DNA of 64,000 nt, taken from the NCBI GenBank assembly GCA_905234185.1, contig CAJOGC010000004.1, positions 1-64,000 of the forward strand. The letters run 5' to 3'. Positions 23,973-47,863 of the stretch are shown piece by piece (within the stretch, counting starts at the first letter, position 1; each line of letters starts with the position of its first letter). Source of the DNA: an uncultured Alphaproteobacteria bacterium. Lineage in GTDB: Bacteria; Pseudomonadota; Alphaproteobacteria; Rs-D84. A program made the position numbers and the translations under genes. The notes under the pieces were generated by a model. The model searched no databases and had not been told where the DNA came from. It worked only from the letters and a program-made list of their open reading frames with translations.

Positions 23973-26816
23973 ATGGGTGGCGTGATAAAAATTCGCGGTG
24001 CGCGCGAAAATAATCTTAAAAATATTGATCTGGACATACCAAAAAATAAATTGGTGGTCTTTACCGGCGTGTCTGGTTCGGGCAAGTCGTCGCTGGCGTT
24101 TAATACCATTTATGCCGAGGGCCAGCGCCGATATGTTGAATCACTTTCGTCATATGCGCGTCAGTTTTTGGATATGCAGAAGAAACCGGATGTTGATTTA
24201 ATCGAGGGTTTGTCGCCCGCCATTTCTATCGAGCAGAAAACCACATCAAAAAATCCTCGTTCAACCGTTGGTACCGTGACCGAGGTTTATGATTATCTGC
24301 GTCTTTTGTGGGCGCGGGTCGGGGTGCCTCATTCGCCGGTGACGGGATTGCCGATTAAGTCGCAAACAATCGCCGAAATGGTTGATTGGACCATGAAAAT
24401 TCCTGCCGCAACGAAAATTTACATAATGGCCCCACTGGTTCGTGATCGTAAGGGCGAATATAAAAAAGAGATTGCTTTTCTGGTTAAACAAGGATATGTG
24501 CGCGCAATAATTGATGGGGAACTTTACGATTTGTCATCAGTGCCACCATTGGACAAGAATAAAAAACATAATATATTCGTTATTGTTGATAGATTGGCGA
24601 TGCCATCAGTGGATGTGTCTGAATCCGATTTGGAAGAGTTCAGAAGCCGCTTATATTCTTCATTCGAAGGTTCGTTACGTTTGGTCCCGGGGTCGGTGTT
24701 GGTGCGGCGTCTGGACACAAACGAGGATACATTGTATTCACAAAACTATGCGTGTCCCGTCAGTGGCTTTACAGTTCCCAAAATAGAACCGCGTCTTTTT
24801 TCGTTTAATGCGCCCGTTGGTGCATGCCAGGCATGTGATGGTTTGGGGGTTCAACTGAAAATATCGCCGGATTTGGTTGTCCCGGATCCATCAAAATCGA
24901 TATTAGGTGGCGCAATCGCGCCGTGGTCGCGTGGTGGAATGTTGACACAATATGATCATTTGTTGGACGCGCTGCATAAAAAATACAAAATACCGTTGTC
25001 TAAACCGTGGCACACACTAACCGCAGAACAGAAAAATATTGTGCTGTACGGCAGCGGTGATGAAGCGATTAAAATAAACTGGAACGGATTTGTTTATGAA
25101 AAACCATATGAAGGGGTGATTCCAAACCTGGAACGCCGGTGGCGTGAATCCGAATCAGAAATAATGCGTGCAGAAATCGCGAAATATCAGTCTGAAAAGC
25201 CGTGCCCGGTATGTCATGGCAAGCGACTTAATATCCAGGCGTTATGTGTAAAAATAAATGGCGCGGATATAATGGATGTTTGCGATATGTCAATCGATGA
25301 TTGCCTTGGCTGGTTCAACGATTTGCCAAACCATTTATCACAAAAAGAAAATGATATTGCGCGTGTGATATTACGTGAAATAACCAGTCGTTTAACTTTC
25401 TTGCAAAATGTTGGTTTGGGATATTTGACATTGTCGCGTATGGCGGGAACGCTTTCTGGGGGGGAATCCCAGCGCATTCGTTTGGCATCACAAATAGGCT
25501 CCGGATTGTCGGGGGTTCTGTATGTGTTGGACGAACCATCGATTGGATTGCATCAAAGCGATAATGACAAATTACTGGATACATTAAAGATGTTGCGCGA
25601 TAAAGATAATACGGTCATAGTTGTGGAACATGACGAGGACGCTATGCGCGCGGCGGACTTTCTGGTCGATATAGGTCGTGGGGCGGGGGTAAATGGCGGA
25701 AATGTTGTTGTCGCCGGAACACCGGATAAGGTTATTAAGTGTAAAGATTCGTTGACGGGTCAATATTTATCCGGCAAACGTAAAATAGAGGTGCCCAAAA
25801 CACGACGCGTCGGTAATGGAAAGTCCATCGTTGTTATGGGGGCGCGTGAAAATAATCTTGGAAATATAAATGTCGAATTTCCACTTGGTTGTTTTATTGC
25901 ACTGACCGGGGTGTCGGGTTCGGGTAAATCGACATTGCTATTGGACACTTTGTATCCGGCACTGATGCGGTCATTGTATAATTCCAAGATAGAGGCAGGT
26001 GCACATGATATTATAAGTGGTATGGAAAATGTAGACAAAGTAGTCGACATAGATCAGTCGCCAATCGGACGCAGCCCACGCAGTAATCCGGCAACATATA
26101 CCGGTGTATTCACGGATATACGTGATTTCTTTGCCGAATTGCCCGAATCAAAGGCGCGCGGATATACCACGGGGCGTTTTTCTTTTAATGTCAAAGGGGG
26201 GCGATGCGAAGCGTGCCAGGGTGATGGCCAGATTAAAATAGAAATGAACTTTTTGGCCGATGTTTATGTCGAATGTGACAAATGTCACGGTGCACGATAT
26301 AATGATGAAACACTGACCGTTAAATATAAAGGCAAATCGATTGCCGATGTATTGAATATGACGGTCGAAGAAGCCTATCGTTATTTTATAAATGTTCCAA
26401 AGATACGTCGCAAATTGGAATTGTTGCGCCGTGTCGGATTGGATTATATCAAATTGGGTCAGAGTTCGTTGGATTTATCCGGTGGTGAAGCCCAGCGTAT
26501 AAAATTATCGCGCGAATTGGCGGCACGCAGTACTGGACAAACGATTTATATCCTGGATGAACCAACAACAGGTTTGCATTTCGAGGATATTAAACTGCTT
26601 TTGTCTGTGTTGCATGAACTGGTTGATGCCGGAAATACAGTCATTGTAATTGAACATAATTTAGAAGTTATTAAAACAGCCGATTGGATTGTGGATCTGG
26701 GGCCGGGCGGCGGAATTAACGGCGGCCGCGTGATAGCCACCGGCACACCGGAACATATTGCCGCAAACAAACAGTCGCTTACTGGACGATATCTAAAGAA
26801 GTATCTGGACAAATAG
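23973..26816 (+). CDS. uvrA: excinuclease ABC subunit A
   Basis: At 947 residues this is full-length UvrA, the damage-sensing ATPase of nucleotide excision repair. The two ABC modules show Walker A motifs GVSGSGKSS (about 32-40) and GVSGSGKST, signatures [16 protein letters not shown] and [16 protein letters not shown], and Walker B regions [10 protein letters not shown] and [10 protein letters not shown]. The zinc modules [10 protein letters not shown] and CEACQGDG...[10 protein letters not shown] are present. The first zinc site reads CPVSGF...CQACDG, as in most UvrA. There is no strong ribosome site before the ATG. Confidence 0.98.
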
Positions 26817-26860
26817 TGTTTTTTGGAATAAAATTATACTGAATAAATAAAGGAGTAATC

Positions 26861-27379
26861 ATGTTTGGGTTTGGTAAAAAAAAGGAAACAAAAACAAATA
26901 TTCAAGATGACACATCGGCGAATATCGATTCGGAATTGAAAGATGTTAAAATGCCGTCCGGGATGAAGGAAACGGCCGCGCGCATGATGTCGGGTGAGTT
27001 TGATTTGAATGATATGTTGGCCCAATTGAAACAGATTAAAAAAATGAGCAATTTTAGCGGGTTGCTGAAAATGGTGCCGGGTATGTCTGGCGCGGTTAGT
27101 GCCATGAAAGAAAAAATAAAGGACGGCAGTGTCGATGCCCAGATTAAGATACTGGAAGCGATGACCGTCGCAGAACGGGCCGAACCGGAAAAGATTTTTG
27201 CCAATGCCAAGGCACGTATTGCGGAAACCGCTGGTTGCACCGTGCGTGATGTTGAACACATTATCAAACAATACACCAAAATGAAACAACAAATGGCAAT
27301 GATTCAGCGCATGGGCGGGATGGAGGCTGTTATGCAGCGTATGCAGGCATCAGGGGGTGGGGTGCCGGGTGCGAAATAA
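26861..27379 (+). CDS. free-standing SRP54/Ffh M-domain protein
   Basis: This 172-residue protein resembles only the C-terminal Met-rich M domain of Ffh: FDLNDMLAQLKQIKKMSNFSG, MVPGM, then ILEAMTVAERAEPEKIF and ARIAETAGCTVRDVEHIIKQ, ending in Met-rich GGMEAVMQRMQ. The NG GTPase (about 300 residues) is absent, and no frame for it lies upstream, which is uvrA. The RNA-contact motif of Ffh (S-R-x-R-I-A-x-G-S-G) is altered to N-A-K-A-R-I-A-E-T-A-G. It might bind signal peptides or another RNA without GTPase control. AAAGGAG precedes the ATG; rlmE follows after 9 bp. Confidence 0.8.
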   Translation: MFGFGKKKETKTNIQDDTSANIDSELKDVKMPSGMKETAARMMSGEFDLNDMLAQLKQIKKMSNFSGLLKMVPGMSGAVSAMKEKIKDGSVDAQIKILEAMTVAERAEPEKIFANAKARIAETAGCTVRDVEHIIKQYTKMKQQMAMIQRMGGMEAVMQRMQASGGGVPGAK

Positions 27380-27388
27380 TTTTATATT

Positions 27389-28048
27389 ATGAAAATACTA
27401 AATAAAAAGATTGCTGCAAAAAAATCTTCTGTTGCCTGGATCCAGCGCCAGGTGGCTGATCCATATGTCGCGCGCGCACACCGTGATGGCTATCGCGCGC
27501 GTGCGGCATACAAACTAATCGAAATGAACGAAAGGTTTCATTTCCTTAAAAATGGCCAGGTTGTTGTCGATTTAGGCGCGGCACCGGGATCTTGGTCGCA
27601 ATATATTGCGCGGACATATCCGCGGTCCAAAATTTTTGCGATGGACTTGCTAGAGATTACGCCGATTCCAAATGTTGTCTTTTATCAGGGCGATTTTACA
27701 TCGGACGATGCTTTGATGTGGCTGAACGAACAACTGGGGTTGGAATCTGGTGAAACAGGGCATGGTACCGCGGATGTGGTTGTGTCCGATATGGCACCAA
27801 ATACCGTTGGTCATAAAAAGACCGATCATTTGCGTCAAATGGTGCTGTTGGAATATGCACTGGATTTCGCGTTGCACGCATTAAAACCGGGTGGAACATT
27901 TGTGGCAAAGTCTTTTACCGGTGGAACAACTGGTGAATTAATAAAGCAGATAAAGGCGAATTTCGATTCCGTGCACCAGGTTAAACCACCCGCATCACGC
28001 AAAGATAGTGTGGAAATGTTTATTGTTGCGATGGGGTTTCATGGATAA
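27389..28048 (+). CDS. rlmE: 23S rRNA 2'-O-ribose methyltransferase
   Basis: A 219-residue FtsJ/RrmJ-family enzyme that methylates U2552 of 23S rRNA in the A-loop. Motifs: an N-terminal RARAAYKLIEMNERF with the catalytic Lys, the AdoMet loop VVDLGAAPGSWSQYIA, VVVSDMAPN with the catalytic Asp, and LKPGGTFVAKSF with the second Lys. The length is normal for RlmE. It is likely co-transcribed with the M-domain gene. Confidence 0.95.
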   Translation: MKILNKKIAAKKSSVAWIQRQVADPYVARAHRDGYRARAAYKLIEMNERFHFLKNGQVVVDLGAAPGSWSQYIARTYPRSKIFAMDLLEITPIPNVVFYQGDFTSDDALMWLNEQLGLESGETGHGTADVVVSDMAPNTVGHKKTDHLRQMVLLEYALDFALHALKPGGTFVAKSFTGGTTGELIKQIKANFDSVHQVKPPASRKDSVEMFIVAMGFHG

Positions 28049-28703: not shown

Positions 28704-28733
28704 TTGACATGTATGTGGGGCTGTTGTTATAAT
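28704..28733 (+). promoter_or_regulatory. consensus promoter of the 28782-29773 secreted pair
   Basis: A perfect TTGACA at 28704-28709 and a perfect TATAAT at 28728-28733 are spaced 18 bp apart, which predicts strong expression of the secreted-protein genes that follow. Confidence 0.75.
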
Positions 28734-28781
28734 TCATATATGGAAGCATGTCATGGTTTGATAAGTCCAAGGGGAAAGGGA

Positions 28782-28964
28782 ATGAAAATGAAATTCTTTA
28801 CAGTTTTGTTGATTTGTTTTATTCCTGTATTTGGTGCGTCGGCCGTTGTGGATGGTCCTGACCCGATTATTTTGGATGATGTTAAAGGGGGACTATTATC
28901 CGGCAGGAACAACCTGTGCCAGTTAATGTGCATGGTACCAATGGGTGGAAATATTAGTGTATGA
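28782..28964 (+). CDS. short secreted peptide
   Basis: A 60-residue precursor with a clear signal peptide (FFTVLLICFIPVFGASA) and a mature part of about 40 residues with two Cys. GGGGAAAGGG lies before the ATG. The start of its mature region (VVDGPDPI) echoes the DDDIDPI start of the next protein, so it may be a truncated relative. It overlaps the next gene as ATGA, and a strong promoter precedes it. Confidence 0.6.
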   Translation: MKMKFFTVLLICFIPVFGASAVVDGPDPIILDDVKGGLLSGRNNLCQLMCMVPMGGNISV

Positions 28965-29773
28965 AGATAAGAACTTTCGCACTTTTGTTGCTTTGTTTGG
29001 GGGCCCCGATGTTTTGTGCGTTTGGGGATGATGATATCGATCCGATCGAAGAAGATCGTGGTTGTACGATTATTGACTGTACAAGCAATTCGGATTGCTT
29101 GGACCAGGGGACGGATTGGTACTGTGCGGATACGCCAGGATGCAGAAATAAATGTCATGAACCCGATGGGCCAGACCCACATGAACAATGTATAGAATCC
29201 TGTGAATGGGTTAGTGCTGAGAATGGTGTTGATCAAGTGGAAGAATGCACAGATAGTAATTGTGATATCACTTATCTAAGATATCGTTGCGGAAAGAATC
29301 GGTATTCCAAAGCGGGAAAAAAGACGGCGTTTCAAATAAGTGCTTTGGATTGCACGAATTGTGCGGGTGGGGGGACGGCACCCGCCGGAAGTAGCAGTGC
29401 AAGTGCGTGTACTACAAATCTGTCGAGTTGTATAGATCAAGGTACGACTTGTGAATGGGTGTCCGGTTCTTTGGTACAATCTGGTTACGAAAACTATAAA
29501 TGCACGACGAAATATACAAATTGTGATGATAAAATTAGTGTTACAAAATATCGTTGCGCGGCGAACTATTATCCGACCAAGAATACCATAACCGGCGAAG
29601 CAACAACACAGAGTGATCTGGATTGTAAACGCTGTCCGACAATCGACGGTGCCAGTTCAACCAGTAGTGCCGGTTCCATAAACATAACAGGCTGTTGCCT
29701 GGGAACGGGGGTTGGGGGTGACGACGGAACAGGGGTTTTCGTAATCACATCAAGTTGTTGTGCGTCAAAATAA
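28961..29773 (+). CDS. secreted cysteine-rich protein
   Basis: A 270-residue exported protein with about 28 Cys after the signal peptide (TFALLLLCLGAPMFCAFG). Repeated modules have the form C-E-W-V-S followed by a Tyr-rich Y-R-C or Y-K-C strand (CEWVSAENG...YRCGKN, CEWVSGSL...YKCTTK, TKYRCAANYYP). That points to a disulfide-rich surface or extracellular protein. The function is unknown. The YRCxxNYYP pattern recalls the GTYLP-type secreted proteins at 38751-40558. It ends before the convergent rnhA. Confidence 0.7.
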   Translation: MKIRTFALLLLCLGAPMFCAFGDDDIDPIEEDRGCTIIDCTSNSDCLDQGTDWYCADTPGCRNKCHEPDGPDPHEQCIESCEWVSAENGVDQVEECTDSNCDITYLRYRCGKNRYSKAGKKTAFQISALDCTNCAGGGTAPAGSSSASACTTNLSSCIDQGTTCEWVSGSLVQSGYENYKCTTKYTNCDDKISVTKYRCAANYYPTKNTITGEATTQSDLDCKRCPTIDGASSTSSAGSINITGCCLGTGVGGDDGTGVFVITSSCCASK

Positions 29774-40740: not shown

Positions 40741-43140
40741 ATGGCCGATGATATGAAAAGAATTCGTGAACGTGAGGAAAAGTGGCAACGCCGCTGGCGT
40801 GATGCGCGCGCTTTTGTGCCAAAGAACGATGGTAAATTGCCGAAATACTATAATTTAATAGAATTTCCGTTCCCGTCGGGGTCGGGTTTGCATGTTGGTC
40901 ACATGTTGCCATACACCGGAATGGATGTTATGGCGCGGTTTAAACGCGCGCGTGGCTATGATGTCCTTTACCCCATTGGATATGATTCAATGGGGATTTC
41001 GTCTGAAAAATATGCAACCAAGGTTGGCAAACACCCGCGCGATTCTGTGGCGGAACTGATTAAAATTTTCGAGAAAGATATTTCTGTTATGGGGTTGTCT
41101 TTTAATCCGGAATCGACCGTTGCAACATCTGATGCGGAATTTATTAAGTGGACCCAGTGGATGTTTATTCAGTTCTTTAATGCGGGGTTGGCATATAAGT
41201 CCGAATTGCCGATGAATTGGTGCCCGAATTGTAAAACAAATCTGACCAACGAAGAGTTGGAAGATGGTTGTTGTGAACGTTGTCACGGCCCGGTCGAAAA
41301 GAAAATGAAATTACAATGGAACCTGGCAATAACAAAATACGCGGACAGATTGATAGATGATTTGGCGTTGGTGGACTATCCGGAACGTGTTAAAACGCAA
41401 CAGATAAATTGGATTGGTCGTTCGTATGGTGCCGAAGTTGATTTCAAGGTTGGTGACGATTCGTTGACCGTTTACACCACGCGGGTCGATACTATTTATG
41501 GTGCGACCTTTGCCGTTATGGCGCCGGAACATCCGTTGGTTGAAAAGTGGTTGGATGAATTGAAAATCAATAACGATGCGGATGTACGGGAATATATTGC
41601 CGTGGCACGCGCAAAGTCTGAATTCGAACGGACGGACGTATCCAAGGAAAAAACAGGTGTCAAACTGGATGGTGTTATGGCGACAAATCCGTTTAATGGT
41701 CGTGACATTCCGATCTTTATTTCGGACTATGTTTTGACCGATTATGGGACAGGTGCAATTATGGCGGTGCCGGCACATGATTCGCGTGACTGGGATTTCG
41801 CAAAGAAGTTCGGACTGGAAATTATTCCTGTGTTGTCGGGGGGCGAACCGGGTCAGGTATGGGAAGGTGACGGCCAACATATTAATTCCGAATTTATGAA
41901 CGGTATGAACAAGGCGGATGCAATTGCGGCGGCGATTAAGTATGGAACCGAACGCGGTTTTGTGCGCGCGACCAAGAAATATAAATTAAAGGACTGGGGC
42001 TTTTCGCGCCAGATGTATTGGGGCGAACCGATTCCGTTGGTCCATTGTGATAAGTGCGGTTGGGTGCCGGTGCCAGAATCCGAATTGCCGTTGTTACAGC
42101 CGCACATGACCGATTATAAACCGACCGAGGACGGCGAAAGCCCCTTGGCGCGTGCAACCGATTGGGTAAATACAACATGCCCCAGATGTGGTGCGCCGGC
42201 GCAACGCGAAACGGATACTATGCCACAATGGGCGGGTTCGTCGTGGTATTTTATGCGATACCTGGACCCGCATAATGACACTGAATTTTGCTCGCGGGCT
42301 CAGTTAGATAAATGGATGCCGGTCGACCATTATAATGGCGGCATGGAACATACGACGCGTCACCTGCTCTATTCGCGATTCTGGTATAAAGCATTGTATG
42401 ATTTGGGGTTCGTTCCGGGGGTTGAACCGTATAAAAAAAGAACCAGCAGCGGCTTGCTGATGGGGGCGGACGGTGTGAAAATGTCTAAATCACGCGGTAA
42501 TGTTGTCCCGTCGACCGACGCGGTGAATCGTGCCGGTGCCGATGCGTGCCGTATGACGATTTTATCACTTGGCCCATGGGAACAGAACGTTAATTGGTCC
42601 GAGGGAACCCTGGCCGGCGTGCAACGTTTCCTTAAACGCGTGGAAAATATGTCCGATAATTTGACAGATGATGCTATGACTGCTGAACAAGAACGGCTGA
42701 TGAATCAATTAATTGCCGATGTGACCGAACGAATCGACGGAATGAAGTTTAACACTGCTATTTCCGCGATGATGGAATATATTAATGCGTTTCCGGGCGG
42801 TAAAATGCCCCGCCCCGCCTATGTGGCGCTGATTCGTGTACTGAACCCATTTGCACCGCATTTAACCGAAGAAATGTGGGAAAAATTGGGCAATAAAACG
42901 ATGTTGACGTTGTCCGATTGGCCGACATATGACGAATCGAAATTGGCGAAAAACGATATGACAATCGTTGTGTCGATAAATGGCAAGCGCGCAAATGACT
43001 TTGTCGTGCCGGTGGGTGCGACCGAATCTGAAATAACCGATGCCGCAAAATCGGCGGCGGGCGCAAAACTGAACGGCGCAACAATAATAAAAACAATCGT
43101 TGTCCCGAACAAGTTAGTTAATTTTGTGATAAAGAAATAA
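40741..43140 (+). CDS. leuS: leucyl-tRNA synthetase
   Basis: A 799-residue class I synthetase that charges tRNA-Leu. The HIGH motif is GLHVGHMLPYTG, the KMSKS motif is GVKMSKSRGN. The CP1 editing domain has TTRVDTIYGATF and IMAVPAHDSRDWDFA. The zinc-type Cys clusters CPNCKTN and CERCHG are present. It is about 60 residues shorter than E. coli LeuRS. GGAG precedes the ATG at 40741 (MADDMKRI), which is preferred over 40720. Confidence 0.97.
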   Translation: MADDMKRIREREEKWQRRWRDARAFVPKNDGKLPKYYNLIEFPFPSGSGLHVGHMLPYTGMDVMARFKRARGYDVLYPIGYDSMGISSEKYATKVGKHPRDSVAELIKIFEKDISVMGLSFNPESTVATSDAEFIKWTQWMFIQFFNAGLAYKSELPMNWCPNCKTNLTNEELEDGCCERCHGPVEKKMKLQWNLAITKYADRLIDDLALVDYPERVKTQQINWIGRSYGAEVDFKVGDDSLTVYTTRVDTIYGATFAVMAPEHPLVEKWLDELKINNDADVREYIAVARAKSEFERTDVSKEKTGVKLDGVMATNPFNGRDIPIFISDYVLTDYGTGAIMAVPAHDSRDWDFAKKFGLEIIPVLSGGEPGQVWEGDGQHINSEFMNGMNKADAIAAAIKYGTERGFVRATKKYKLKDWGFSRQMYWGEPIPLVHCDKCGWVPVPESELPLLQPHMTDYKPTEDGESPLARATDWVNTTCPRCGAPAQRETDTMPQWAGSSWYFMRYLDPHNDTEFCSRAQLDKWMPVDHYNGGMEHTTRHLLYSRFWYKALYDLGFVPGVEPYKKRTSSGLLMGADGVKMSKSRGNVVPSTDAVNRAGADACRMTILSLGPWEQNVNWSEGTLAGVQRFLKRVENMSDNLTDDAMTAEQERLMNQLIADVTERIDGMKFNTAISAMMEYINAFPGGKMPRPAYVALIRVLNPFAPHLTEEMWEKLGNKTMLTLSDWPTYDESKLAKNDMTIVVSINGKRANDFVVPVGATESEITDAAKSAAGAKLNGATIIKTIVVPNKLVNFVIKK

Positions 43141-43164
43141 AAAACGGGGTGGTGCCCCGTTTTT
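43141..43164. terminator. terminator after leuS
   Basis: The stem AAAACGGGG/CCCCGTTTT is followed by TG. Confidence 0.8.
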
Positions 43165-43183
43165 GCTAACCGTTAATCACTAA

Positions 43184-43630
43184 CTAAGAAATCTTTTCGA
43201 TTCGACGGATGCGGCGTTCGCAATCGTCAAATGGGCTTTCCAAGAAAGTTTGAACACATACAAAAGCCATTTCAATATCAATATCGTCCGCGGCCAATGC
43301 AATTACATTTATATCGTCATGAAAACGGTCGTCACGTGCCTGGTCTGGGCGGTCGCAACGCGACGCACGAATGTGGCGGAAACGATTCGCCGCAATCATT
43401 ATGCCCGCACCCGTGCCACAGATAAGAATCCCACGTGATTTCGGATCGTCCGCCATTGCTTCGGCTAATTTTGCGGCGACATCTGGATAGTCAACCGGTG
43501 TATTCAAATCGTCGGTGCCCAGGTTTACAACCATATACCCCGCCGCATTCAGCATTTCAATCAGATACAATTTCAGCCCCACCCCACGATGATCGGCGGC
43601 AATGTAAACTTTGGATACAGTCTTATTCAT
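43184..43630 (-). CDS. rpiB: ribose-5-phosphate isomerase B
   Basis: A 148-residue LacA/RpiB-family isomerase that interconverts ribose 5-phosphate and ribulose 5-phosphate. Motifs: YIAADHRGVGLKLYL, VDYPDVAAKLAEAM, GILICGTGAGIMIAANR with the catalytic Cys, and DDINVIALAADDI. The family CGTGIG reads CGTGAG. Its start overlaps the end of the bactofilin gene by 8 bp. It pairs functionally with the transketolase elsewhere in the window. Confidence 0.93.
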   Translation of the reverse strand: MNKTVSKVYIAADHRGVGLKLYLIEMLNAAGYMVVNLGTDDLNTPVDYPDVAAKLAEAMADDPKSRGILICGTGAGIMIAANRFRHIRASRCDRPDQARDDRFHDDINVIALAADDIDIEMAFVCVQTFLESPFDDCERRIRRIEKIS

Positions 43631-43985
43631 GTTTTTTATCCTTCGCGTCTTTGCGTTTTGTTAATTTGCATTCCAGTGCGGTGTTTGCGGTTATGTTTAA
43701 TGTGCGGTAAGACAATTCGCCGCGCATTTGGGCCGCACTGAACATATTTGCATTATTCACGGTCGCCGGGCCGTCCAATGTGCCGTGCAAGAACAAATTA
43801 TCAGCAACGATTGCACCCTCGACCACGCCCCCGCGGCCAATTACGACGGTTGTTGCGGTAATGTCGCCAACGATGTGCCCGTGAATCTGAACCGTGTGGT
43901 CAGTTTTTATATCGCCGTTAACATGGCACCCCGCCCCGATGACGGTTGGTGATTGTTTCTCACTTGAATTAGTAAATGCCAACAT
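43623..43985 (-). CDS. bacA: bactofilin
   Basis: A 120-residue bactofilin (DUF583), a cytoskeletal polymer in bacteria. The right-handed beta-helix repeats are visible (VIGAGCHVNGDIKTDHTVQIHGHIVGDI, then GVVEGAIVADNLFLHGTL), flanked by short unstructured ends. In several bacteria bactofilins recruit cell-wall enzymes. Here an M23 endopeptidase gene lies immediately upstream in the same direction, the classical pairing. GGAAAGGATAGGGG precedes the ATG. Confidence 0.92.
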   Translation of the reverse strand: MLAFTNSSEKQSPTVIGAGCHVNGDIKTDHTVQIHGHIVGDITATTVVIGRGGVVEGAIVADNLFLHGTLDGPATVNNANMFSAAQMRGELSYRTLNITANTALECKLTKRKDAKDKKHE

Positions 43986-44000
43986 TCCCCTATCCTTTCC

Positions 44001-45278
44001 TTATTCTTTTATAAACTTGCTTGGGTCAAACGGTTCACCCTTGTATCGAATTTCATAGTGCAAGTGTGGCCCCGTTGAACGTCCAGATGAACCGCCAAGT
44101 CCCACGACCGTGCCCGGACGAACCCAATCGCCACGTGCAACGGTTGCGCGCGATAAGTGTGCGTATAGTGTGGTAAAGCCCAATCCGTGGTCTATTTCCA
44201 CCGTTAAACCGTATCCGACACGTTCGCCCGCCGATATTACACGACCCGGGGCGACCGCCATCAATTCCGTGCCAATTTTGCCGGCAAAGTCAATTCCACG
44301 ATGCTTTTTGGGTTTGCCGGTAAATGGATCTTTGCGGGTACCATAGTTAGATGTCACGCGGACATCGCGTATCGGTGCACCAATCGGTAATATGCGTGAC
44401 ATCTTGGTCAGGCCGTTCCACAATTCCAATCCGTCCGCCAATTTTTGATATTTTGGATCCATTCCTTTGTCCATGGTCAGCGGATTAAATGCCGCACCAA
44501 CCAAAGAATTTGCGTATTTATTTGCGCGTTCAACCAAATCACGTTCGTTCAGCCCCAATGTGGCGATTGTTCCGTTTATCTTTTTAATATTCTGGCGTAG
44601 TTCGTCCACATGTTCGTTTGTCATTTTTGCGACCGTTTCAACAATTTGAGAATCCGCAGTGGCAATTTGTTGAACATTTTCGGCAATCAGGTCGCTTTGT
44701 TTACGTAAAGCCTCGTTTTCGGCGCGGGTAATTTCGTATTCAACAGACAATTCCGCCAATTTTGTGTATTCCGGTGCATAGTCCGCGTTGGTGAACATTT
44801 CGGTCAAACGCGTCCGTAAGAAATCCATTTCACCCCATGTTTTCAAACGATTGTTCAGTAATTCTTCCTTTTGCGCATCGGTCAATTTGTCGGCGTGCAA
44901 TATTTTGTCGTCTGTCACGTTTAAATTACGGGTTAATTCGTTGAATTTAGTCAAATAAGTTTGTAAATCGGCCATGTGCCGATCGTGTGTGGCACGCATT
45001 TCCTCTATCTGGGCGGTACGCATTTGCAACATGGGACGATGGTAAACAAATACATATGTCGACCATGACGCCCAAACAATCAAACCCGTCTTGCCACAGA
45101 ATTTTGTAAAGCGCCAGAAACTGTTTTGTTGGTATGTATAAACATTGCCGCGCGGAATATCCATAACGGTAAATTCGCGTGGCGGGAAAATGCGTGTAAT
45201 CACGCGCCACAGTGCCCGAAACGGCCATGTGATAAGCGACCACAGCGATGAAAAATATCGTGCAATAAAACTTAACAT
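44001..45278 (-). CDS. M23 (LytM) endopeptidase with coiled coil
   Basis: A 425-residue membrane-anchored peptidoglycan endopeptidase. A cytoplasmic N terminus, one membrane helix (about 57-77) and a coiled coil (about 80-250) precede the LytM domain. Zinc ligands are His326 and Asp330 (HRGIDFAG) and His407 (HLHYEI, His405 also). It cuts peptide cross-links, and with the bactofilin gene 15 bp downstream it probably shapes the cell wall. The start overlaps the methyltransferase gene by 7 bp. Confidence 0.92.
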   Translation of the reverse strand: MLSFIARYFSSLWSLITWPFRALWRVITRIFPPREFTVMDIPRGNVYTYQQNSFWRFTKFCGKTGLIVWASWSTYVFVYHRPMLQMRTAQIEEMRATHDRHMADLQTYLTKFNELTRNLNVTDDKILHADKLTDAQKEELLNNRLKTWGEMDFLRTRLTEMFTNADYAPEYTKLAELSVEYEITRAENEALRKQSDLIAENVQQIATADSQIVETVAKMTNEHVDELRQNIKKINGTIATLGLNERDLVERANKYANSLVGAAFNPLTMDKGMDPKYQKLADGLELWNGLTKMSRILPIGAPIRDVRVTSNYGTRKDPFTGKPKKHRGIDFAGKIGTELMAVAPGRVISAGERVGYGLTVEIDHGLGFTTLYAHLSRATVARGDWVRPGTVVGLGGSSGRSTGPHLHYEIRYKGEPFDPSKFIKE

Positions 45279-45961
45279 TGTGAGTCTAGTTTAGCCAATG
45301 TATCAGAAATAGTCAAGCCATCACGTAATATCATTTCGCAATTCATGGCCAGGCCGTCAAATACGCTTGTCGGACCGTGTGTCCCAACGCGGGCGCGGAT
45401 TATAACGCGTTCGGCAGTGTGTTTGTTGCTGAATAATGGAAATATTGTTATGTCGCCACACACCGGGTTCAGTGCCGAAATAATGTCTGATACGGCACCT
45501 GCGTCGACAATTGTGCAAAATGTTCCGCGTGGGCGGACGCGCGCAACCGATTTTTTTGTCCATTTAACCAAATCAACATTATGGTGTGCGTTATGGGCCG
45601 CGGGTGTACCCCGAAAATACGGTGGATTTGTTATAACAATATCAAATGTTCGTGGGGTGCGCCAATTCATAATATCGGCATTTATTAATTCAATGGTTCT
45701 ATTATTAAGTGTGGCGTTTTTGGCGCACTGGGTCAACATAGTATCTGATATATCTAGGCCTGTGGCAGACTTAATATCCGAATTAGCCATCAAACACAAA
45801 ATCGCCCCACCCGTTCCAACACCAATGTCCAGAACCGTTTTTGCGTGTATGTGCGCAACCGCCGCCGCCAACCACACCGCATCGGACGTCGGGTTATAGG
45901 TGCCACGATAAAACGCGGCACGTCCCCCCAACATGGTAAAAATATCTTGTTTTTCGGACAT
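45272..45961 (-). CDS. N6-adenine methyltransferase, TrmN6-like
   Basis: A 229-residue class I AdoMet methyltransferase of the MTS/TrmN6 type. The AdoMet loop is VLDIGVGTGGAI, and the catalytic motif NPPY (112-115) marks adenine N6 methylation. TrmN6 modifies A37 of tRNA-Val, so tRNA is a likely substrate. The ATG at 45961 is preferred over the TTG at 45982. It overlaps the M23 gene. Confidence 0.85.
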   Translation of the reverse strand: MSEKQDIFTMLGGRAAFYRGTYNPTSDAVWLAAAVAHIHAKTVLDIGVGTGGAILCLMANSDIKSATGLDISDTMLTQCAKNATLNNRTIELINADIMNWRTPRTFDIVITNPPYFRGTPAAHNAHHNVDLVKWTKKSVARVRPRGTFCTIVDAGAVSDIISALNPVCGDITIFPLFSNKHTAERVIIRARVGTHGPTSVFDGLAMNCEMILRDGLTISDTLAKLDSQC

Positions 45962-45999
45962 GTCTGTATAATAATCCAACAAAAGAAAAAGGCAAGTTT

Positions 46000-46980
46000 A
46001 TGTTTGATGATGCGATTATAGTACAAAGCGCGATAAGCGCGTTCAATAATGCCGCACTGGTGGCACCTGCGTTTTTTTGGTCGGCATTGTTGACATTGCC
46101 TTTGTATGCAATTGTTTGGGCCATGGGGGGAAAGATTGCGGAATATTTACACTGGTCACATGGAAATATAATCGCGCGTTCCGCGCTGTGGACGGTTATT
46201 ATCACGATTGGATGGGTTGTTTTATTCGGTGGTAATTATGCCGTGTTGCGGGATGATACATCGACATTGCCGTTTATGATTGCCGCAATAACATTTGTTT
46301 CGTTTGTATTTATCGGATCTTACACTCGTGATATTAAGTGGTGGCGACGGGAACATATTGCCTATGTCATGTTGGTGCTGTTTGCATTGGGGGTGTCTGA
46401 TACGCATATTTGGTGGGGACCGTTGATGCAGATTGGTGCGGCATTTTTTGGCTTTTTTGTTGGTCGAACATCAAAGGTTGAAATGCCCGCAATACCCGGT
46501 GTCTTGCTTGTGATGGGGGCAACTGTGACGGCAATGCTGATGCAGCCAGAATACTTTCGATTTGGTCAGTTGGGTAATTTGACGTGGGTTCATTTGTTTG
46601 CGGTTTTATTATTTGGAATGCTTGTTGCGGCGACTTTGGCGGTTCGGAATATAAATGCACGTGGACGCATTCATAACAGTGCGCATATTAAATTAAGGTG
46701 GATGATACGGTTTGTTTGTGCACTGGGGATTGGTCTTTTTATTATGACGGAGTCTGTGCCTGTATTTATTGGTGTGGCGGTGGCGGTGTTCTTGCTGGTC
46801 GCATTGAATGTATGGCACGCAAAAAAAATTCCCGGCGTAATGGGCGATAAATTGTTTGCGTTATCTGTTGTATTATTCGGGATTCTTACCACTATGCCCG
46901 TGATAACGGCCATTGGCATAATATGTTTTGTTAATATGCCGCAACTTGATTTTGGGCATGAAATCAGCCGTTTGTTATAA
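46000..46980 (+). CDS. multi-pass membrane protein of unknown function
   Basis: A 326-residue protein with about ten hydrophobic segments and short loops, for example ARSALWTVIITIGWVVLF and IAYVMLVLFALGVSD. I see no transporter or enzyme motif. AAGGCAAG precedes the ATG. It is divergent from the methyltransferase gene and lies upstream of lpxA with a 79-bp gap. Confidence 0.7.
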   Translation: MFDDAIIVQSAISAFNNAALVAPAFFWSALLTLPLYAIVWAMGGKIAEYLHWSHGNIIARSALWTVIITIGWVVLFGGNYAVLRDDTSTLPFMIAAITFVSFVFIGSYTRDIKWWRREHIAYVMLVLFALGVSDTHIWWGPLMQIGAAFFGFFVGRTSKVEMPAIPGVLLVMGATVTAMLMQPEYFRFGQLGNLTWVHLFAVLLFGMLVAATLAVRNINARGRIHNSAHIKLRWMIRFVCALGIGLFIMTESVPVFIGVAVAVFLLVALNVWHAKKIPGVMGDKLFALSVVLFGILTTMPVITAIGIICFVNMPQLDFGHEISRLL

Positions 46981-47059
46981 TTGGTTATATTTATTTAATA
47001 CCATTTATTTGCTTAATTAGTTATGATTACAAGTGAAAATATAACAAAAGAGCAATAAA

Positions 47060-47863
47060 ATGAGTACAATACATCCAACCGCGATAATTCACGACGGGGC
47101 CGTTTTGGGGACCGATTGTAAAATCGGGCCTAATTGCATCGTTGGACCCAATGTCATATTGGGCGATCGTGTGGAATTGATTTCTAATGTGGTCATAGAT
47201 GGAAAAACATCGATTGGTGACGATACAATAGTGTATCCGTTCGCGGTTCTTGGCGTAATGAGCCAGGATTTAAAATGGCAAGATGAATCCGCAATGACGG
47301 GTTTGCGAATTGGAAAACGGTGTCGTATTCGTGAATATGTGACAATTCATTCCGGAACCCCGGCATCAGACGGAACCGAAATTGGTGATGATTGCCAGAT
47401 TATGGTTAATGCACATGTTGGACATGATTGCAAGGTGGGAAACAATGTGGTTATGTCTAACCTGGTACAGGTTGCCGGACATGTAGAGATAGAAGATTTT
47501 GTTATTTTGTCCGGTGGGGTTATGGTATTACAGTTTTCACGCATCGGGCGCAATGCCTTTGTGGCCGGTATGACCGGGGTCACAAACGATGTTTTGCCAT
47601 ATGCTATATACGAAGGTAATCCACGCGCTGTATATCGCACAATAAATCGCGTTGGGTTGATGCGACACGGATTTACGAACGAAGATATGCATGCCATTCA
47701 TGCGGTGTATACCGCGGTATTTCGTGGAACCGAAGGCACCGTTTCCGAACGACTTGCACGGGTTCGCAAAGAAGTGAAAAATAATAAATATGCCATGGAT
47801 GCCATAGACTTTATCGAAAATCGTTCAAAACGCGGCATCGGCACATCACAAAATGCAGAATAA
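47060..47863 (+). CDS. lpxA: acyl-ACP:UDP-N-acetylglucosamine O-acyltransferase
   Basis: A 267-residue left-handed beta-helix enzyme with hexapeptide repeats (IHPTAIIHDGAVLG, then IGPNCIVGP). It starts lipid A synthesis by transferring a 3-hydroxyacyl chain to UDP-GlcNAc. The catalytic His is His122 in NAHVGHDC. The length and the C-terminal helical part are typical. lpxB overlaps it by 11 bp. fabZ and lpxD, often adjacent, are absent here. Confidence 0.96.
   Translation: MSTIHPTAIIHDGAVLGTDCKIGPNCIVGPNVILGDRVELISNVVIDGKTSIGDDTIVYPFAVLGVMSQDLKWQDESAMTGLRIGKRCRIREYVTIHSGTPASDGTEIGDDCQIMVNAHVGHDCKVGNNVVMSNLVQVAGHVEIEDFVILSGGVMVLQFSRIGRNAFVAGMTGVTNDVLPYAIYEGNPRAVYRTINRVGLMRHGFTNEDMHAIHAVYTAVFRGTEGTVSERLARVRKEVKNNKYAMDAIDFIENRSKRGIGTSQNAE

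Follow-up and report, generated by a model that had tools for sequence, protein, structure and literature searches.

What is the M domain of Ffh kept for in a bacterium that lacks the rest of the signal recognition particle (SRP)? The SRP is commonly described as universal, with a GTPase cycle that is regarded as essential in nature. The question is raised by an open reading frame on the plus strand of the window (the whole 64,000-nucleotide stretch of DNA analyzed here), which runs from an ATG at position 26861 to a stop codon at 27377-27379 and encodes 172 amino acids. We found that its product matches the Pfam profile SRP_SPB (PF02978) over the whole profile, positions 1-91 (hmmscan, 7.9e-23, 81.1 bits, cut-off 27). 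The ffh profile TIGR00959 aligns only from profile position 314 onwards (87 bits, cut-off 473), so that the NG domain is absent from the protein. The open reading frame, the Pfam match, conservation, and a gene tree thus identify a free, NG-less Ffh M domain, as the first-pass annotation had proposed on a reading that it had staked on a match to PF02978. The gene is preceded by a Shine-Dalgarno-like AAGGAG (26850-26855), read in the sequence 5 nt 5' of the ATG.

The protein begins with a short aromatic and polybasic segment, MFGFGKKK (26861-26884), that is conserved in the M-only copies: the pattern MFGF[G/I][KR]K[KA] was found in 88/88 Enterousia copies, and the other M-only genera start with M[SA]WF[SG]xKK or MAFLGFGKKK. 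The M domain core (26996-27295; PF02978 positions 1-91) is delimited by Pfam, model, and alignment and retains the hydrophobic groove and the PG finger loop, and a Met-rich C-terminal helix and tail occupy residues 139-163 (27275-27349), with helices predicted at residues 128-150 and 154-165. Across the aligned M-only copies, the hydrophobic helix positions, P355-G356, and the Met-rich tail are all retained. An AlphaFold model of the protein has a pLDDT of ~94-97 for residues 91-140, lower values in the finger-loop region, and low values for residues 9-28. When the predicted fold was searched with Foldseek, Ffh/SRP54 M domains were returned first, followed by the mitoribosomal entries 6z1p_AT, 9g6k_Le, and 9i05_AI.

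The former 4.5S RNA-binding motif (residues 114-125, 27200-27235, located by alignment) now reads ANAKARIAETAG, which the first-pass annotation had correctly given as A-N-A-K-A-R-I-A-E-T-A-G. Compared to E. coli Ffh, whose numbering we use, the canonical SRxxRxxxGSG is lost through S397 to N, R398 to A, G405 to T, and S406 to A. We compared 28 M-only sequences with 25 full-length Ffh proteins from order members and outgroups: position 397 is N in 28/28 M-only copies, position 398 is A in all 28 and R in 25/25 full Ffh, and position 405 is T in 23/28 M-only copies and G in 25/25 full Ffh. In the structure of the Ffh M domain with RNA, these residues are known to contact 4.5S RNA. R401 is retained in the 28 sequences, whereas the M-only gene of genus g23 (G191, L350:5871-6377) retains R398 and carries E at R401; these are two distinct routes to loss of the RNA site. 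Many further changes fixed in the lineage lie outside the RNA motif.

Absence of the SRP GTPases and the SRP RNA

In the genome that carries the window, a PF02978 search returned a single match, the gene at 26861-27379, and a search with the SRP GTPase profile PF00448 returned none, while the same profile was positive in 14/14 control genomes; neither the Ffh NG domain nor FtsY was found there by profile search. As the genome has no full Ffh, the M-only protein is not a paralogue, which was one of two suggestions made in the first-pass annotation. The other, a split SRP, falls as well, because a separate NG part was found in none of the 164 genomes of the M-only genera described below.

The organism belongs to the Candidatus Enterousia lineage in the GTDB order Rs-D84, whose genomes are all uncultured metagenome-assembled genomes (MAGs) and measure ~0.75-1.0 Mb in Enterousia (mSphere 2025, PMC12306168). 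The main text of that paper does not mention the SRP, and our literature search found no paper connecting Rs-D84 and SRP. Among 201 genomes of the order, 189 have a PF02978 match, comprising 35 full-length Ffh and 154 M-only genes (150-273 amino acids where open frames were listed; contig ends split a few of them). M-only genes occur in the genera g1 (Enterousia, 156 genomes), g18, g19, g20, g23, and g24; the single, incomplete genome of g21 has neither an M domain nor an SRP GTPase. In a survey of 183 genomes of the family, the full-SRP genera (g22 and g25-g29) account for 19, of which 18 have genuine SRP GTPases, the exception being a genome that is 54% complete; an SRP GTPase (Ffh NG or FtsY) was found by profile search in 0/164 genomes of the other seven genera. 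Likewise, among 59 relatives, every genome from another family had SRP GTPase matches, and genomes of the same genus had at most a match of 17-20 bits. Weak PF00448 matches (17-23 bits) in M-only genomes were considered as candidate SRP GTPases and rejected: all five open reading frames inspected, including the two matches lying just above the cut-off, encode Der/EngA.

An assembly error that splits ffh at this site had been named in the first-pass annotation as a way in which its reading could fail. Such an error is excluded, since 154 genomes of the lineage carry the same short gene, one of them (G060) in a single contig of 1,001,484 bases. Only one genome of an M-only genus that is more than 90% complete lacks a PF02978 match (G142; 5 contigs, scored 100% complete). 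Neither uvrA, nor rlmE, nor the transketolase gene was found in C2-C4 and most of C5 of this genome (~70% read, excluding the interior of C1), and the absence of its M domain may be a gap in the assembly.

The SRP RNA follows the same distribution. With the Rfam model RF00169, which overlooks some true RNAs (2/14 controls, as well as those of G038 and G039), we found SRP RNA in 21/24 genomes of other genera and in no genome of the genus itself. A lineage-specific covariance model, built from the RNAs found by RF00169 and searched with laxer filters, recovered the RNAs of G038 and G039 and found SRP RNA in 20/21 full-SRP genomes and in 0/18 M-only genomes (best chance E 0.25). A covariance model search of positions 42500-47500 of the window with filters off gave nothing above chance (best E 0.54). 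Separately, weak matches to the SRP RNA model cluster within ~1.2 kb in one genome (G196:C1:17121-18287; L292, L295-L297), which is probably a structured repeat array.

Loci and origin of the M-only gene

The M-only gene is separated by 44 bp from uvrA (23973-26816, plus strand), which precedes it, and by 9 bp from the gene that follows, an rlmE-like gene of the FtsJ family (27389-28048, plus strand); the names of these neighbors rest on recognition by sequence. The 44 bp between uvrA and the M-only gene (26817-26860) hold no trace of the NG domain. In g22 and g25-g29, the full-length ffh is located beside uvrA, and near rlmE where the contig continues, which is the place taken by the M-only genes. 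Since these sister genera keep the full-length gene at the uvrA-ffh-rlmE locus, the NG domain was deleted in place, and the M-only gene, as a reduced orthologue, is what remains of ffh itself at its ancestral locus. Adjoining this locus (window positions 28704-29773) are genes for Cys-rich proteins with apparent signal peptides, and a similar Cys-rich, exported-looking protein is encoded near ftsY at L253:6326-7003.

The places of the two other SRP genes are closed at the sites we examined. In g28, g29, and g26, ftsY has pgk on one side and clpP-clpX on the other; in the M-only genus g23, where this site was seen, ftsY is absent and a spacer of ~350 bp separates pgk from clpP-clpX. A GC-rich repeat, CCCCTCCCTTGGAGGGG..., occurs in this spacer (G191, L339:17650-18000) as inverted copies and may be the element through which ftsY was deleted. 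In g27 and g29, both with a full SRP, a methyltransferase-like gene has the 4.5S RNA gene next to its 3' end. In the window, the only place where this site was seen closed, the methyltransferase-like gene (45272-45982, minus strand) and its neighbor (44001-45278) share 7 bp, which closes the place of the RNA gene.

Two full-SRP genomes have unusual SRP genes. One of the 35 full-length ffh genes, that of G199 in g27 (L238:5104-6492), is interrupted by a single in-frame TAG in the GTPase domain, with ftsY and the 4.5S RNA intact; this is either a sequencing error or the onset of SRP decay in the nearest full-SRP relative. In G193 of g25, Ffh and FtsY (L232:5974-7593 and L266:2765-3934) have extra insertions inside the GTPase domain that look like translated repeat elements, and the FtsY of 389 amino acids has a low-complexity insert.

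In a tree of M-domain genes, all M-only copies group together (100/100) in a single clade, whose stem measures 1.84 changes per column. After this initial burst of change the gene evolved under strong constraint, with a median dN/dS of ~0.07 (for pairs with dS 0.1-1, the value is 0.075). The g23 gene nests within this clade, so that the M-only gene arose once. This placement is at odds with the species trees built from ribosomal proteins and from locus genes, which put g23 outside the other M-only genera and beyond full-SRP g27, with full-SRP genera in between (AU p 0.0011 and 0.0406). Either the M-only gene was transferred to g23, or the long branch of g23 is wrongly placed, and the SRP was correspondingly lost once, or once with an additional transfer. 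Overall, the SRP GTPases and the SRP RNA were lost together anciently in a bacterial clade that retained the M domain under constraint, and the M-only protein is almost certainly the sole, RNA-free and GTPase-free remnant of the SRP.

Possible role of the free M domain

With the GTPases and the RNA lost, the gating of recognition and delivery by SRP and FtsY is gone. A constitutive nascent-chain binder is the simplest reading of what is left, because the retained part is the one that binds hydrophobic signals. The gene is an in-place remnant of ffh after the loss of the Ffh NG domain, FtsY, and 4.5S RNA; its M domain was retained under strong constraint, minus the RNA-binding arginine and with a newly acquired N-terminus that is short, basic, and aromatic. 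We propose that the free M domain would bind hydrophobic signal-anchor and transmembrane segments at the ribosome exit or soon after, without RNA or GTP, and would hand its clients to SecYEG or YidC by proximity instead of through a GTPase-gated receptor. Its position may be close to the tunnel exit, like that of mitochondrial mL105, and/or at the membrane, to which MFGFGKKK would attach it. This segment resembles the FtsY N-termini of the full-SRP sisters (MGIFSK, MGLFKKLFAKK) and, to judge by its composition, is possibly a membrane anchor that replaces FtsY. Taken as a whole, we give this explanation a probability of about 0.6 on the present sequence comparisons; that the protein is a nascent-chain factor feeding SecYEG/YidC is its probable but purely inferential part.

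The genomes encode SecY, SecB, trigger factor, and YidC. We considered compensation by an Oxa1-like YidC tail and rejected it, as tails measured from GLxxYW have 25-27 residues in Enterousia and 21-54 in others, and sequence comparison of the ribosomal proteins uL24 and uL29 revealed no consistent lineage-specific docking change. With the YidC tail not lengthened and uL24/uL29 unchanged, the genomes give no sign of a compensating device for ribosome tethering.

The same observations bear on an alternative in which the M-only protein is a soluble chaperone of the holdase type, catching hydrophobic segments post-translationally off the ribosome, together with SecA/SecB, and is no ribosome factor. 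The retention of SecB and trigger factor, uL24/uL29 free of co-evolved docking, and the lack of an RNA to place the protein on the ribosome are all consistent with this alternative. However, direct contact with the tunnel exit is known for SRP M domains and for mL105 (PMC7326499, PMC9576764), and the Met-rich C-terminal helix is the counterpart of the mL105 helix that enters the tunnel, which makes a holdase rather unlikely. We consider it unlikelier still that the domain was repurposed for a role other than targeting, for instance as a regulator or scaffold, with membrane insertion left to SecA/YidC. The long stem, the many fixed changes beyond the RNA motif, and the new N-terminus would fit such a change of role, but the protein keeps the groove-type hydrophobic positions as well as the PG loop and the Met-rich tail, and the losses fall on the NG domain and the RNA-contact residues, as expected were signal binding what remains.

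That the pattern is an artefact, arising from a split ffh assembly or from a divergent NG domain, FtsY, or SRP RNA that was missed or lies in missing parts of MAGs, is highly improbable: MAGs are all there is and RF00169 has its blind spots, yet none of the 164 genomes, G060 among them, yielded a domain that scores ~120-250 bits in relatives, the lineage RNA model detects nearly all positives, and the loci are closed at the sites examined. Least credible is a functionless, decaying vestige of ffh, which reduced genomes and the loss of the rest of the SRP might suggest but which the substitution pattern, with its low dN/dS and near-invariant blocks, renders very unlikely, as does the persistence of the gene, with its own ribosome-binding site, in 154 genomes of six genera.

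Comparison with known systems

A free M domain has a mitochondrial precedent in mL105/MAP67, seen in Tetrahymena (6z1p_AT), Polytomella, and Toxoplasma mitoribosomes. mL105, an M domain that lacks NG, sits at the tunnel exit and extends its C-terminal helix into the tunnel (PMC7326499); in Polytomella it is associated with density assigned to the OXA1L insertase (PMC9576764), and MAP67 is of the same family (PMC8321541). Like the M-only protein, it lacks NG and SRP RNA and works in a compartment of alphaproteobacterial descent, and homology between the two is indicated by a profile match to Tetrahymena 6z1p_AT (4.6e-7) and by the fold match. In contrast to the M-only gene, which lies on a bacterial chromosome at the ffh locus in cells that retain SecY, mL105/MAP67 is a nuclear-encoded, mitochondrial, stable subunit of the ribosome and coexists with mtFfh in Goniomonas. 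The two probably originated independently, as the locus of the M-only gene is that of ffh in sister genera.

The M domain is homologous to that of bacterial Ffh/SRP54 throughout and orthologous by gene tree and locus, but the M-only lineage lacks the NG GTPase, receptor, and RNA, and its RNA motif is destroyed. Chloroplast SRP54 of seed plants belongs to an SRP without SRP RNA. The protist mtFfh likewise functions without SRP RNA (PMC8321541). Both cpSRP54 and mtFfh keep the NG domain and FtsY, which the M-only lineage has lost. Extreme insect endosymbionts also lost SRP parts in reduced genomes, as illustrated by Portiera and Carsonella, whose gene lists imply that they have no ffh (PMC4122945), but no retained, constrained free M domain has been described in them, and Rs-D84 keeps SecB, trigger factor, YidC, and SecY.

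We know of no description outside mitochondria of an SRP reduced to the domain that grips signal peptides. Here, a gut clade with tiny genomes, represented by 164 of them, has lost both GTPases and the RNA but has kept the channel and the insertase, and the signal-binding domain is all that it preserves of the SRP, while sister genera with a full SRP and identical gene order provide an unusually clean comparison of before and after. More tentatively, with the odds slightly against it, a single small M-domain protein may carry out signal recognition and membrane-protein targeting without GTP, receptor, or RNA, as a minimal SRP that independently repeated the mitochondrial mL105 route and has a membrane-anchoring N-terminus in place of FtsY. 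The lineage thus makes testable the question of which minimal part of the SRP is worth retaining once GTP-driven targeting is lost, and provides, in bacteria, a parallel to the way in which mitochondrial mL105/MAP67 arose.
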